Below are positions 5,354 to 36,606 of a DNA stretch of 36,678 nucleotides, piece after piece. The notes under the pieces are model-generated. The model worked only from the letters and a program-made list of their open reading frames with translations. It searched no databases and was not told the origin of the DNA. Position numbers and translations under genes: made by a program. This stretch comes from an uncultured Succiniclasticum sp. (lineage in GTDB: Bacteria; Bacillota; Negativicutes; Acidaminococcales; Acidaminococcaceae), in NCBI GenBank assembly GCA_905233365.1, contig CAJODT010000011.1, forward strand, positions 1 to 36,678, given 5' to 3'. The number at the start of each line of letters is the position of its first letter. Within the stretch, counting starts at the first letter, position 1.

Positions 5354-5518
5354 TTAAGGAAACGCTGATTAATTCGTCTGCACGCTGACCGGTGCTTTTT
5401 GCGACTGACTGCGTCAATGTCCCTCGACGCAGCTACGGCTGCGCCTTCGGGCCATTTCCTTGTCAGTCGCAAAAAGCCCTCGGACATCGCACAAACTCAT
5501 TTAATCAGCGTCTCCTAA
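5354..5518. repeat. 165 bp palindromic MITE-like repeat, copy A
   Basis: TTAAGGAAACGCTGATTAATTCGTCTGCACG ... ACAAACTCATTTAATCAGCGTCTCCTAA; near-identical to 18930-19094 and 22220-22385. Confidence 0.9.
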
Positions 5519-18929: not shown

Positions 18930-19094
18930 TTAAGGAACCACTGATTAATTCGTCCGCACGCTTACCGGGTGTTTTTGCGAATGGCTTCGTCACTGTCTCT
19001 TGACGCAGCTCGGCTGCGCCTTCGAGCCATTTCCTTGCCATTCGCAAAAACTCCTCGGCCATCGCACGAACTCATTTAATCAGTGTTTCCTTAA
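18930..19094. repeat. 165 bp palindromic MITE-like repeat, copy B
   Basis: TTAAGGAACCACTGATTAATTCGTCCGCACG ... ACGAACTCATTTAATCAGTGTTTCCTTAA. Confidence 0.9.
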
Positions 19095-19203
19095 GAATGA
19101 AAGCAAAACATATTTCATTGCGGGAAGACGCAACATGGTACATGTGATATAATTAATAAAAGAAATTTGATATGCAAGGAATCATTGGGTGAGGAGTTTG
19201 AAA

Positions 19204-22219: not shown

Positions 22220-22385
22220 TTAAGGAAACACTGATTAATTCGTCTGCACGCTGACTGGTGCTTTTTGTGACTGACTGCGTCAATGTCCCTCGACGCAGCT
22301 ACGGCTGCGCCTTCGGGCCATTTCCTTGTCAGTCGCAAAAAGCCCTCAGTCATCGCACAAACTCATTTAATCAGCGTCTCCTTAA
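22220..22385. repeat. ~165 bp palindromic MITE-like repeat, copy C
   Basis: TTAAGGAAACACTGATTAATTCGTCTGCACG ... ACAAACTCATTTAATCAGCGTCTCCTTAA. Confidence 0.9.
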
Positions 22386-22407
22386 CGGAATTCCGGAAAG
22401 ATAACCC

Positions 22408-23781
22408 TTATCCGCGATAGTAATAGAAGAAGGTCATGCCTACGTTAACGATCATGGCGCCGCACATGGGGATGAAGGTACGCTTGATCAGGTCAAAGGG
22501 AGAAACGTTGCCCATGCCGGAAGCGACTACGATAACCGCGGTGATAGGAGAGCAGGTACGGGCGATAGAAGCCGCGAAATGCATCGGCAGCAGGAACAGC
22601 ACCGGTGCGATGCCGCTGGCTTTGGCTACGGCCGGGGTCAGAGCGGCGAAAGCGAAGAAGGGTGCGTTGCCGGAACCCATAACGACGGAAGATACGGCGA
22701 TAATAGCAACCATTACCACCATCATCATCATGGGGGAGAAACCTGCACTCTGGCTGCCTTTGATGAGGGTGTTGATGACGCCCATGCTCATCAGGCCCTG
22801 GGCAAAGACCTGACCGGCTACGATCAGGGTCACCACGTTGGCCATCTGCATGCCCATGCCGTCAAAGAAAGCCTGCACGCCGTCAAAGACGGTCTTCAGG
22901 TTGCGGGTGCGGATGAATTCTGCGATCATGCCCACTGCCAGACCGATCATCATGGCATTGATGATGTTGACTTTGATCCAGGTGATCCACAGGGGGCTGA
23001 AGCTTAAGATCAATGCCAGGGGTACGATGGGCAGCAGAGCGTAGATAGCCGGCGCATTGTCCGCCGGATCGTCGGATTTGGCGTGATCTACATCCATGGG
23101 AACAACTACATGGCCGTCGCGTTTATCCAGATATTTTTGAGAAAAGAAAAATAAGGTGCCGACCACGAAGAAAGCGACAATAACGATGGGAACCTGATAG
23201 TTGGTCCAGTAAATAACAGGGTCCAGGCCGGCGTGTTCCGCGGACAGGATGGTGCCGGTATCACTGGGACTCCAGTCAAAGCAGAGGGTGGAAGCAACGG
23301 CTGCGGTGGCGGCCAGACGACTTACGCCCAGACCGATGAGGATGGGGAATACCGTAACCATCAGCAGCATGGCCAGACCGGAGGCGGAGTTGATGCATAG
23401 GCCGATGCACAGGCCCAGCACCCAGCTCAGGGACAGTACCAGGTAGGGAGATTTCAGTTTCAATAACGGTTTGATGGTCATGCGAACCAGGGCGCGGGAT
23501 GCGCCGATCTTATCCATGTACTTGGCGAAAGCGCCTACGCACATGATGTTCAGGCCCAGCTTGGCAGCCCGGGAGGACAGTGTCTGTGACATGAACTGGA
23601 ACGTATCAAACAGGATGGAACCGGTACTGGCTTTGGGAGCCAGGATTTGTCCGTAACCGAAGATGACGGCGATGTACATGAGGATGAAACCGCCGACCAC
23701 CAGGACCGGTTGCGGTTTATATTTTTTGTAAATCAGGTATGCAACCCAGAATGTAACAAGAAATGAGATTACTAACGCCAT
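22408..23781 (-). CDS. DcuC-type C4-dicarboxylate transporter family protein
   Basis: Multi-TM; MCVGAFAKYMDKIGAS, FDWSPSDTGTILSAEHAG, VMGSGNAPFFAFAAL; ATG 23781 with ggagg RBS. Confidence 0.82.
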   Translation of the reverse strand: MALVISFLVTFWVAYLIYKKYKPQPVLVVGGFILMYIAVIFGYGQILAPKASTGSILFDTFQFMSQTLSSRAAKLGLNIMCVGAFAKYMDKIGASRALVRMTIKPLLKLKSPYLVLSLSWVLGLCIGLCINSASGLAMLLMVTVFPILIGLGVSRLAATAAVASTLCFDWSPSDTGTILSAEHAGLDPVIYWTNYQVPIVIVAFFVVGTLFFFSQKYLDKRDGHVVVPMDVDHAKSDDPADNAPAIYALLPIVPLALILSFSPLWITWIKVNIINAMMIGLAVGMIAEFIRTRNLKTVFDGVQAFFDGMGMQMANVVTLIVAGQVFAQGLMSMGVINTLIKGSQSAGFSPMMMMVVMVAIIAVSSVVMGSGNAPFFAFAALTPAVAKASGIAPVLFLLPMHFAASIARTCSPITAVIVVASGMGNVSPFDLIKRTFIPMCGAMIVNVGMTFFYYYRG

Positions 23782-28794: not shown

Positions 28795-29745
28795 TCAGAA
28801 CATATGCTTTTTCCACAGCCAGAAGCCGGCCAGCAGGCTGACCACGCAGGCGATTCCGAACACAATGTAGAAACCGTGGGACATCGCCGCGAAAGGTACC
28901 GGCACGTTCATGCCCCAAAGGCCGGAGATAAACGTGGGGATGGCCAGGATGATGGTGACCGATGCCAGAAAACGCATCACCAGGTTCAGGTTGTTGCTGA
29001 TGATTGAGGCGAACACTTCCATCATGCTGTTCAAAATGTGGCTGTACATCTCAACCATTTCAATGGCCTGCTTGTATTCGACGATAACATCGTCCAGCAG
29101 ATCTTCGTCTTCTTCGTACAGCTTGATCAGCTGCTGTGTCTGCGGCGTGGTGCGCAGCCGCAGCAGTTTTTCCGTCACCATGTAATTGCTGCGCAGGGAC
29201 GTGGTGAAATAGGTCAGGGATTTCTGCAGGTCCAGCATGCTGAACAGCTTGGAATTTTCCATGGCCTGGCGCAGATGCGCTTCCAAATCGTCCGTCCTGC
29301 GAATGATGTTGCGGATATATTTCAGATATAACGTAGCCGACTTATACAGAATCTGGAACAGGAACCGGGTCTTCTTGTACGTACTGAACATTTTGTACGT
29401 TTTGGCATTAAAGCCGGAAGTGACCGCGTTGCTTTCCAGGCAGACGGTAACGATTACATCTTTGGTGACAATGATGCCTAGCGGCATGGTGTCATAATCT
29501 TTGTTGCTGCGGAAAAAAGGAATATCGATGACGACAAGGAGCTGCTCTTCGTCAATTTCCGTACGGGCTTTTTCTTCCCGGTCCAGAGCAGCTGTCAGAA
29601 AATCTCTGGAGATCTGGGTTGCATTGGCGATTTCATCGATTTCTTCCGTAGAAGGGGCGACGATATCGATCCAGCAGCCTTTTTCCATATCTTCGATGTC
29701 GAGTTCATCAACGCCGGTGTTGGAGCTTTTCAAAATTTTGTACAT
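28795..29745 (-). CDS. corA: CorA-family divalent cation transporter
   Basis: C-terminal two TMs with GMNVP signature (SGLWGMNVPVPF), long coiled region. Confidence 0.93.
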   Translation of the reverse strand: MYKILKSSNTGVDELDIEDMEKGCWIDIVAPSTEEIDEIANATQISRDFLTAALDREEKARTEIDEEQLLVVIDIPFFRSNKDYDTMPLGIIVTKDVIVTVCLESNAVTSGFNAKTYKMFSTYKKTRFLFQILYKSATLYLKYIRNIIRRTDDLEAHLRQAMENSKLFSMLDLQKSLTYFTTSLRSNYMVTEKLLRLRTTPQTQQLIKLYEEDEDLLDDVIVEYKQAIEMVEMYSHILNSMMEVFASIISNNLNLVMRFLASVTIILAIPTFISGLWGMNVPVPFAAMSHGFYIVFGIACVVSLLAGFWLWKKHMF

Positions 29746-29861
29746 GGCCGGTTCCTCCTTTCCTGCGTGATTTCATGATTCGCCATTACTGTTTTCAGTC
29801 TCTGTTTTCGGCAGAAAGGAGATTTTCGCCGGAGAAGGCCGAATCGTTTTAATGGCAAATC
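29746..29861 (-). promoter_or_regulatory. Candidate structured 5' leader of corA
   Basis: 12-bp long-range helix GATTTGCCATTA/TAATGGCGAATC, internal TTCGGC/GCCGAA stem, CTCCTTTC complementary to SD GAAAGGAG. Confidence 0.45.
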
Positions 29862-29907
29862 ATAAAAACACTTTCCCTTATAAAACACTTTTCCTTATAA
29901 CTAATTT

Positions 29908-29913
29908 ATTATA
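29908..29913 (-). promoter_or_regulatory. -10 element TATAAT, candidate corA promoter
   Basis: Minus strand ttcgtaTATAATaaatt; no strong -35. Confidence 0.4.
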
Positions 29914-30109: not shown

Positions 30110-30190
30110 GGTGGGTATGGTGAAGCTGGCCTAACACGGCGGATTGTGGCTCCGTTATTTTCGCAGGTTCAAATCCTGTTACCCACCCCA
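30110..30190 (+). tRNA. tRNA-His (GTG)
   Basis: G-GTGGGTATGGTGAAGC...GGATTGTGGCTCC...GGTTCAAATCC..TACCCACCCCA; G-1 present. Confidence 0.9.
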
Positions 30191-30202
30191 TTTTTTCATT
30201 TT

Positions 30203-30278
30203 TGGGGTGTAGCCAAGTCGGTAAGGCACAGGACTTTGACTCCTGTATGCGTAGGTTCGAGCCCTGCCACCCCAGCCA
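30203..30278 (+). tRNA. tRNA-Gln (TTG)
   Basis: TGGGGTGTAGCCAAGTCGG...GGACTTTGACTCC...GGTTCGAGCC..CACCCCAGCCA. Confidence 0.95.
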
Positions 30279-30287
30279 ATTTTTAAT

Positions 30288-30363
30288 GGTCCATTAGCTC
30301 AGTCGGTAGAGCACCTGACTTTTAATCAGGGTGTCCCGCGTTCGAGTCGCGGATGGATCACCA
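30288..30363 (+). tRNA. tRNA-Lys (TTT)
   Basis: GGTCCATTAGCTCAGTCGG...GACTTTTAATC...CGTTCGAGTCG..ATGGATCACCA. Confidence 0.96.
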
Positions 30364-34486: not shown

Positions 34487-35174
34487 TAGTATGTCAAATT
34501 ACAGTTCTTCACAAAAGCTAAAGTTGACGAACAACGTATTTAAAATGGCTTAACTTGAACGACTTTACTGGAACAGTTGGAACTTTTTTATGGTATAATA
34601 TATATTTAAGTGCGAGCTGCGAAAACAGCGCTAAACTGTTTTCCACTGGTTGCGCGAGCGACCTTTGTAAGCTGATAACATCACAGCAGGGCAAACCTGT
34701 CGGGTAAGGTTTAGCCAACCGCCCGTACCGAGTCCTTGGGAGCGAAGTGGTAACACCAGCTCTAAGCGTAGGACAGGGAGCAGCAGAGCCGTAGCGCAAG
34801 CGAAGTGATTGAGCCGGGAAATGATTATTTAGTGGGATTTGGCCGATGTTCTTTATTTGACAGCAGGCAACATCTATCTGGCCGATAGAGGCGAGGTCAG
34901 GCAGGCAACCCCCGGTCTGAGAGCATGGCGAGGCTGATGCAGACGTGAGCAGAGATTCACGCAAGTGAGTTATCGGAACAGCTGAGGTCCCGTTACATCC
35001 CGAAAGGGTATACAAAGTCAAGCGTCTGAACAAACGCAAGACAAGTAAACGTGCAGCGGGAAGTCCGATGTCGTCATAGTACTGTAGAAACCTGTGAAAG
35101 CAGGTGGAGGGAAGGGCGGCACATTTCATAGCTTCGGGCAAAGAAGCAACCGTACAGACAGGAGAGCTGAGAAT

Positions 35175-36503
35175 ATGGTGGGCGGAATGCTCGGAATAAG
35201 CTACAGCATAAGTAAAGCAAACAGAACAGACGGAAGAGTACAGAACCTTGCTGCTCACATAGACAAAAACCTTCTGATGGTGATACACCGGAGGATGAAA
35301 TCAGGAAAAGCAAAGGGCATTGACAATGTGAGCAAGGACGAGTACGCAGAGGAACTGGAAGCGAATCTGGACAACCTGCTTAGCAGGATGAAAAGAGAAG
35401 CGTACAGACCAAACCCGGCAAGGAGAACCTATATACCCAAGGCAGGAAGTAACAAAATGCGCCCATTGGGTATATCCAGCTATGAAGACAAGCTGGTCGA
35501 GAATGCGATAGCCCAAATCCTGACCCCGATATATGAGCAGAAGTTCATAGCTACGAGCTATGGATTCAGGCCACACCGGAATTGCCATATGGCAGTGAAG
35601 GAGGTCATAGAGATGGTGCAATACCGCAAGACCAACTATGTAGTAGAAGCGGATATAAGGGGCTTCTTTGACAACGTGAACCACGAGTGGCTGATAAGGA
35701 TGTTGGAGCATGACATAGCGGACAGGAAGTTCCTGAACATAGTGAGGAAATTCTTGGAAGCAGGCGTCATGGAAAACGGCAAATATCTGGACAGCGAGAA
35801 AGGCACGCCTCAGGGAAATGGAGCGAGCCCTGTGCTGGCGAACGTATACCTGCACTACGTGCTTGACTTGTGGTTTGAGAAAATCGTCAGGAACAGAATG
35901 AAAGGGCAGTGTTATCTGATACGATATGCAGATGATTTTGTCTGCTGCTTTCAGCACGGGAACGAAGCAAGAAAGTTCTTGGAAGTACTCCGGGCGAGAT
36001 TTCAGAAGTTTGGGTTGGAACTGGCGGAGGAAAAGACCAGGATTCTGGAATTTGGAAGATTTGCAGAAGAAAATCGGAAGAAGCGGGGAGAAGGGAAACC
36101 AGAGACCTTCGACTTCCTTGGTTTTACGTTCTACTGCGGAAAGGCGAATAAGCAGGGATTCTTCAGGTGCAGAGTAAAGACGAGCAGGAAGAAGTTTATT
36201 AGTAAGCTGCGGGCAATGAAAGAATGGATAAAATCCCACCGGGCATTGCCGCTAAGAGAGATGCTCAACATGATAAGAGCGAAACTAAGAGGACACTACC
36301 AATACTACGGAGTAACAGACAATACGAATGGAATTAAAAGTTTCTACACGCAAACGATATGTATGCTATTCAAGTGGTTAAACCGAAGGAGCCAAAAGAA
36401 AAGCTATACAAAGCAAGGCTTCTTTGAAGGTGTTCTACGGACGTTTAAGCTGCCTACACCAAAGATTTATGTGAGTTTGTTTTATAAACGTGTACAAATA
36501 TGA
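35175..36503 (+). CDS. ltrA: Group II intron reverse transcriptase/maturase (no HNH domain evident)
   Basis: RPLGISSYEDKLVENAI, TSYGFRPHRNCHMAVKEV, GTPQGNGASPVLANVYLHYVLD, IRYADDFVCCF, FDFLGFTFYCG; start uncertain within the 35094 ORF. Confidence 0.93.
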   Translation: MVGGMLGISYSISKANRTDGRVQNLAAHIDKNLLMVIHRRMKSGKAKGIDNVSKDEYAEELEANLDNLLSRMKREAYRPNPARRTYIPKAGSNKMRPLGISSYEDKLVENAIAQILTPIYEQKFIATSYGFRPHRNCHMAVKEVIEMVQYRKTNYVVEADIRGFFDNVNHEWLIRMLEHDIADRKFLNIVRKFLEAGVMENGKYLDSEKGTPQGNGASPVLANVYLHYVLDLWFEKIVRNRMKGQCYLIRYADDFVCCFQHGNEARKFLEVLRARFQKFGLELAEEKTRILEFGRFAEENRKKRGEGKPETFDFLGFTFYCGKANKQGFFRCRVKTSRKKFISKLRAMKEWIKSHRALPLREMLNMIRAKLRGHYQYYGVTDNTNGIKSFYTQTICMLFKWLNRRSQKKSYTKQGFFEGVLRTFKLPTPKIYVSLFYKRVQI

Positions 36504-36509
36504 AATGAA

Positions 36510-36542
36510 GAGCCGTATGCGTTAATAGCGCAAGTACGGTTC
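36510..36542 (+). ncRNA. Group II intron domain V
   Basis: GAGCCGTATGCG-TTAATA-GCGCAAGTACGGTTC. Confidence 0.9.
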
Positions 36543-36580
36543 TGTGAGGGGTATGGGGAGCAATCCCCATATCTACTCGA

Positions 36581-36606
36581 GACCGCTTTGTTAAGCGGTT
36601 TTTTAA
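36581..36606 (+). terminator. Intrinsic terminator-like hairpin directly 3' of the intron
   Basis: gaccgctttgttaagcggttttttaa. Confidence 0.7.

Follow-up and report, generated by a model that had tools for sequence, protein, structure and literature searches.

The structured leader of corA in Escherichia coli and Salmonella (the corA motif, PMC6429828) has been reported only from Gammaproteobacteria; it combines alternative stems, control by Rho and a short upstream open reading frame (uORF), corL (PMC6429828, PMC11552253). The E. coli corA mRNA is also a target of RNase III, according to Lim et al. 2012 as cited in two later papers (PMC4067347, PMC11552253). A different kind of leader that would suit a Mg2+ transporter gene is the M-box Mg2+ riboswitch. 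In Bacillus, hairpins near the 5′ end are known to stabilise mRNAs, and the leaders of E. coli ompA and papA and of B. subtilis aprE carry a stem-loop close to the 5′ end whose loop sequence is not critical and which is followed by an accessible Shine-Dalgarno (SD) sequence (review PMC3997798). The RNase III-processed leaders of E. coli rnc and pnp contain a near-perfect helix of two turns.

The window analysed here, a 36,678 nt stretch of an uncultured Succiniclasticum sp. genome, carries corA on the minus strand (28795..29745). The gene encodes a CorA-family Mg2+ transporter of 316 aa (Pfam PF01544, E = 1.8e-47), in line with the divalent cation transporter named in the initial annotation, and its orthologues in 13 other Succiniclasticum genomes are 75–96% identical to it. 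Divergent tRNA genes lie upstream (30111–30360). A predicted −10 box, TATAAT (29908..29913, minus strand), with transcription expected to start near 29901, is present in all 14 aligned leaders of the genus, hairpin-bearing and hairpin-less alike; the −35 is off consensus and a promoter scan made no call there. From the position of this box, we infer that corA transcription starts just upstream of the hairpin described below. The window genome alone carries two copies of the leader block TTATAAGGRAAAGTGTTT, a tandem duplication of about 17 nt (29867..29901, minus strand) recognised by alignment and pattern search, of which the relatives have a single copy. The helix probably begins about 30 nt into the transcript in the window; in the relatives, which lack the duplication, this distance is about 13 nt. 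Another upstream sequence, GGGGTAGTATTTTT, considered as a regulator site, is no more frequent than its reversed control. The SD region (GGAAAGGAGG, 29754..29763, minus strand) is unchanged in all 14 leaders.

Between the predicted promoter and the SD lies a long helix. The initial annotation had noted 12 bp of it, including one U-G, formed by GAUUUGCCAUUA (29861–29850) and UAAUGGCGAAUC (29788–29777), with all coordinates correct. On the corA strand the pairing extends further, 29871–29850 with 29788–29767, so that 21 of 22 positions are paired, the exception being a U.U at 29868/29770; outward extension ends at GUG (29871) and CAC (29767). The 5′ arm is thus GTGTTTTTATGATTTGCCATTA (29850..29871, minus strand) and the 3′ arm TAATGGCGAATCATGAAATCAC (29767..29788, minus strand), and the SD, which is outside the helix, lies 3 nt past its base. 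The 171 nt leader of the window has a predicted folding energy of −45.1 kcal/mol (z = −3.3), equalled or beaten by none of 200 shuffles. Predicted pair probabilities in the helix are 0.84–1.0 except at the U.U, most of them above 0.9. In all hairpin leaders other than L028, the SD is predicted to belong to no stable helix: it sits just beyond the hairpin, with weak local pairing only. An inner stem that had also been proposed, UUCGGC (29843–29838) with GCCGAA (29812–29807), exists as complementarity and is unused in the minimum-energy fold.

Viewed in one genome alone the helix is unremarkable, because in 400 kb of S. ruminis, taken as background, about 10 sites on the two strands pair at least 21 of 22 positions with loops of at most 100 nt, and 16 of 121 leaders have a lower folding z than the corA leader. 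Judging from the alignments, the remarkable feature is the conservation of the helix across eight genomes. Some leader hairpins in S. ruminis are stronger, such as those near start codons around 118900 and 145300 of contig G001:C27 (L121–L140; for example GGCGAATGGAATTTCTG...CAGAGATTCCATTCGTC), and in Succiniclasticum long hairpins in mRNA leaders may be a common feature.

Of the 14 Succiniclasticum genomes, 8 (the window and L023–L029) have the hairpin in the corA leader. In L023–L027 the arms are 95–100% identical to those of the window, compared with 72–86% at the 4-fold degenerate sites of corA. Across the eight leaders, 94% of the cells in the helix alignment are paired, against 32–61% when the partner is slid. 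Covariation in related leaders had been named by the initial annotation as the check on the fold, and it is seen in the outer helix, where two pairs have had both members replaced and still pair, one in L029 and one in L028 (as many are reached in 8 of 500 shuffles, n = 8); the inner stem is not kept by the relatives. With 13 of the 22 pairs invariant in these eight sequences, several of them closely related, the covariation is real but thin. Read in the corA sense, most of the cells that are not Watson–Crick are U-G; only one is a C-A, which would pair on the other strand. This bias favours an RNA reading, though the independent events are few. The helix of L028 is degenerate, with three further unpaired positions.

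A covariance model (R1) was built from the eight hairpin leaders and searched against 59 genomes of the family. The hairpin was matched in the same eight genomes only, as a single copy in each and always at corA, and was not found in the 45 other family genomes outside the genus. Additional matches were to remnants in the hairpin-less leaders of G002 and G013, with weaker remnants elsewhere. Leaders without the hairpin that keep the −10 box and the SD occur within the genus (L030, L031 and L032) and among deeper relatives (L033, L034 and L051). The beginning of the 5′ arm is retained in L031 (GTGTTTCTAT), and a stretch of L030, ATAAAAATACGC, is identical to the base of the 3′ arm of L029; we read both as apparent remnants left by deletions. 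A single gain of the hairpin followed by its loss in the L030–L032 group fits the corA tree, which is poorly resolved. The hairpin is dispensable, being missing from three species of the genus and from all other genera. No further copies, as expected of a mobile element, a dispersed palindromic repeat or a MITE, were found in these genomes. The corA leader of Phascolarctobacterium has an unrelated 10 bp hairpin, GTGAATTAAA...TTTAATTCAC, shortly upstream of the SD (L036:1919–2003).

The initial annotation did not recognise the leader as the known M-box or ykkC-type fold, and the searches agree. The M-box model (RF00380) matched none of the 14 genus genomes, while the B. subtilis and L. lactis controls did match. 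Against Rfam 15, at gathering and permissive thresholds, the leader gave only a chance U4atac match on the other strand (E = 3.3), and 20 corA regions of deeper relatives gave only a tRNA. The published E. coli corA leader was also unmatched by the copy of Rfam used, so absence from Rfam is weak evidence. Model R1 had no match in the corA leader of E. coli (L154). The two leaders have in common that they are structured and precede corA, but the E. coli and Salmonella leader is longer and has the alternative stems, Rho control and corL that set it apart from the one described here. The hairpin adds a lineage-specific structured corA leader, apparently undescribed, from a genus of rumen bacteria that has been little studied and gave no M-box match.

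The 61 nt enclosed by the helix (29789..29849, minus strand), which form a predicted apical stem-loop, are hypervariable. Identity between leaders is 29–62% in most pairs, and 57% even where the genome flanks are 99% identical; the loop diverges more than the 4-fold sites of corA do. It is 29 nt long in L028, and in four of the eight leaders it folds better than 95% of its own shuffles. From this comparison, conservation is concentrated in the long basal helix, and the sequence of the loop is nearly unconstrained. In L023 and L024, 149 of 150 upstream bases and 298 of 300 gene bases are identical, compared with 35 of 61 in the loop; that is, 26 of 61 loop bases (L023:1905–1966) differ and 3 of 450 flanking bases. 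A loop that differs amid surroundings that are 99% identical is a small puzzle. The pattern in the alignment is that of a wholesale replacement, not of gradual drift, and short-tract recombination would be its simplest cause, because the arms and flanks are near-identical across species. The difference may also stem from an assembly mixture in the metagenome bin of L023. An invertible segment was rejected, as no loop is the reverse complement of another and reverse comparisons score at background. A search for a loop donor elsewhere in the genus gave weak matches only, and the two inspected sit within long open frames.

The reading that we favour, with a slightly better than even chance of being right, is that the hairpin is a lineage-specific stem-loop in the 5′-UTR of the corA mRNA with a structural, non-sensing role. 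Such a role is consistent with a predicted stable helix that leaves the SD outside (except in L028) and with the compensating changes among the eight leaders. The helix would form during RNA synthesis and then persist. It could shield the 5′ region from decay while keeping the neighbouring SD in open RNA, and/or could offer RNase III, which is encoded in the genome, a double-stranded substrate of two turns, so setting the level of corA mRNA; passive stabilisation or insulation and RNase III processing carry about equal weight. Like the ompA, papA and aprE stabilisers (PMC3997798), the predicted stem-loop is close to the 5′ end, is followed by an accessible SD and has a variable loop; unlike them, it has 21 pairs and is expected some 30 nt from the 5′ end (13 nt in relatives), and its stabilising effect is putative. 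The predicted near-perfect helix of two turns recalls the rnc and pnp leaders. In E. coli, control by RNase III concerns the same gene, corA, as far as the citing papers relate it, and the likeness is one of gene and enzyme. Points against a structural role are that the hairpin is dispensable, that it is represented by eight sequences only, and that the SD of L028 is predicted to be masked. With eight sequences, regulation by the leader has a lower probability than a structural role.

The initial annotation had instead proposed a metal-sensing fold in which CUCCUUUC in the loop (29821–29814) masks or frees GAAAGGAG of the corA SD (29762–29755). The two sequences are indeed present and complementary, but the switch did not hold up in the relatives. 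The 8 nt anti-SD of the window has p = 0.066 against shuffled loops. A long anti-SD occurs in two of the eight leaders, the second being L028, the leader with the degenerate outer helix, where it has at least 9 nt and the predicted fold exceptionally masks the SD. It is interrupted in L023 and L027, and the loops of L024, L025, L026 and L029 match the SD no better than their shuffles do. When nested pairing of the SD is imposed on the window leader, its energy goes from −43.9 to −30.4 kcal/mol, a cost of about 13.5 kcal/mol; a pseudoknot that retains the helix would be energetically possible (−37.6 kcal/mol with the helix kept and both strands open, −10.0 kcal/mol for the duplex). Among the eight leaders there is neither a conserved ligand-binding core of the sort expected in a translational riboswitch, the interior diverging beyond even the 4-fold sites, nor a conserved anti-SD or SD-masking alternative fold, and the hairpin itself is missing from three species of the genus. 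These eight sequences thus give little sign of a metal-sensing switch, which we regard as highly improbable. A 12 bp helix and an 8 nt anti-SD in one genome are insufficient to propose a riboswitch: the relatives keep the helix, not the parts of the switch. It is improbable too, if less so, that the arms are fixed while loops exchanged between lineages tune CorA strain by strain, as a variable anti-SD or as the target of an sRNA or protein. Translation could also enter through a uORF, AUG AUU UGC CAU UAA, in the 5′ arm, by analogy with E. coli corA, which is controlled by corL (PMC11552253): its translation, in the manner of corL or mgtL, would open the helix and, depending on cellular Mg2+, regulate corA via Rho or via the access of ribosomes. 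This AUG is present without change in the eight hairpin leaders and lies 12 nt after UAAGG in seven, but it is also part of the constrained helix. The encoded peptide is MICH or MICY followed by a stop in six leaders; in L028 and L029 the frame stays open and continues with other residues. There are no prolines or acidic residues, and the hairpin-less leaders keep UAAGG without the uORF. An overlapping 18-codon frame across the SD, MANHEITQERRNRPC-K-, was rejected: in L028 most of its differences alter the amino acid, L029 lacks its start codon, and it has no SD of its own. As neither upstream frame is conserved as a peptide across all leaders, the corL mechanism is a lead here, not a finding, and is quite unlikely to apply.

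Two further readings dispense with a role for the RNA. The hairpin could be a remnant, or a self-maintaining palindrome without function, whose arms are alike through template switching or mere inheritance. Template switching within a long inverted repeat can also produce compensating changes, the element is restricted to one lineage, with three relatives in the genus lacking it and apparent remnants in L030 and L031, its loop has been replaced wholesale, and the window holds other palindromic repeats. However, the 59 family genomes contain no second copy, and conservation in the arms exceeds that at 4-fold sites, an excess that template switching on its own would not produce; we consider this reading unlikely. 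Arms conserved around an unconserved spacer would also be expected of inverted binding sites for a regulatory protein, acting in DNA rather than as an RNA helix. Both arms are downstream of the predicted start, though, their changes keep RNA pairing including U-G, the spacing is altered in L028 and the covariance model finds no other site in the genus, all of which makes binding sites in DNA very unlikely. The structural stem-loop in the corA 5′-UTR is the reading retained here.

Other elements were seen elsewhere in the window. A MITE-like, dispersed nested palindrome of about 160 bp occurs at 5355–5518 and 18930–19096, with a related half-site near 22370–22411; its ends are TTAAGGAAACGCTGATTAA and TTAATCAGCGTCTCCTTAA, and it has a conserved inner hairpin. 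Parts of a group II intron RNA lie in 34691–36583, with domain matches at 34691–34925 and 36508–36583 around a frame of 469 aa.
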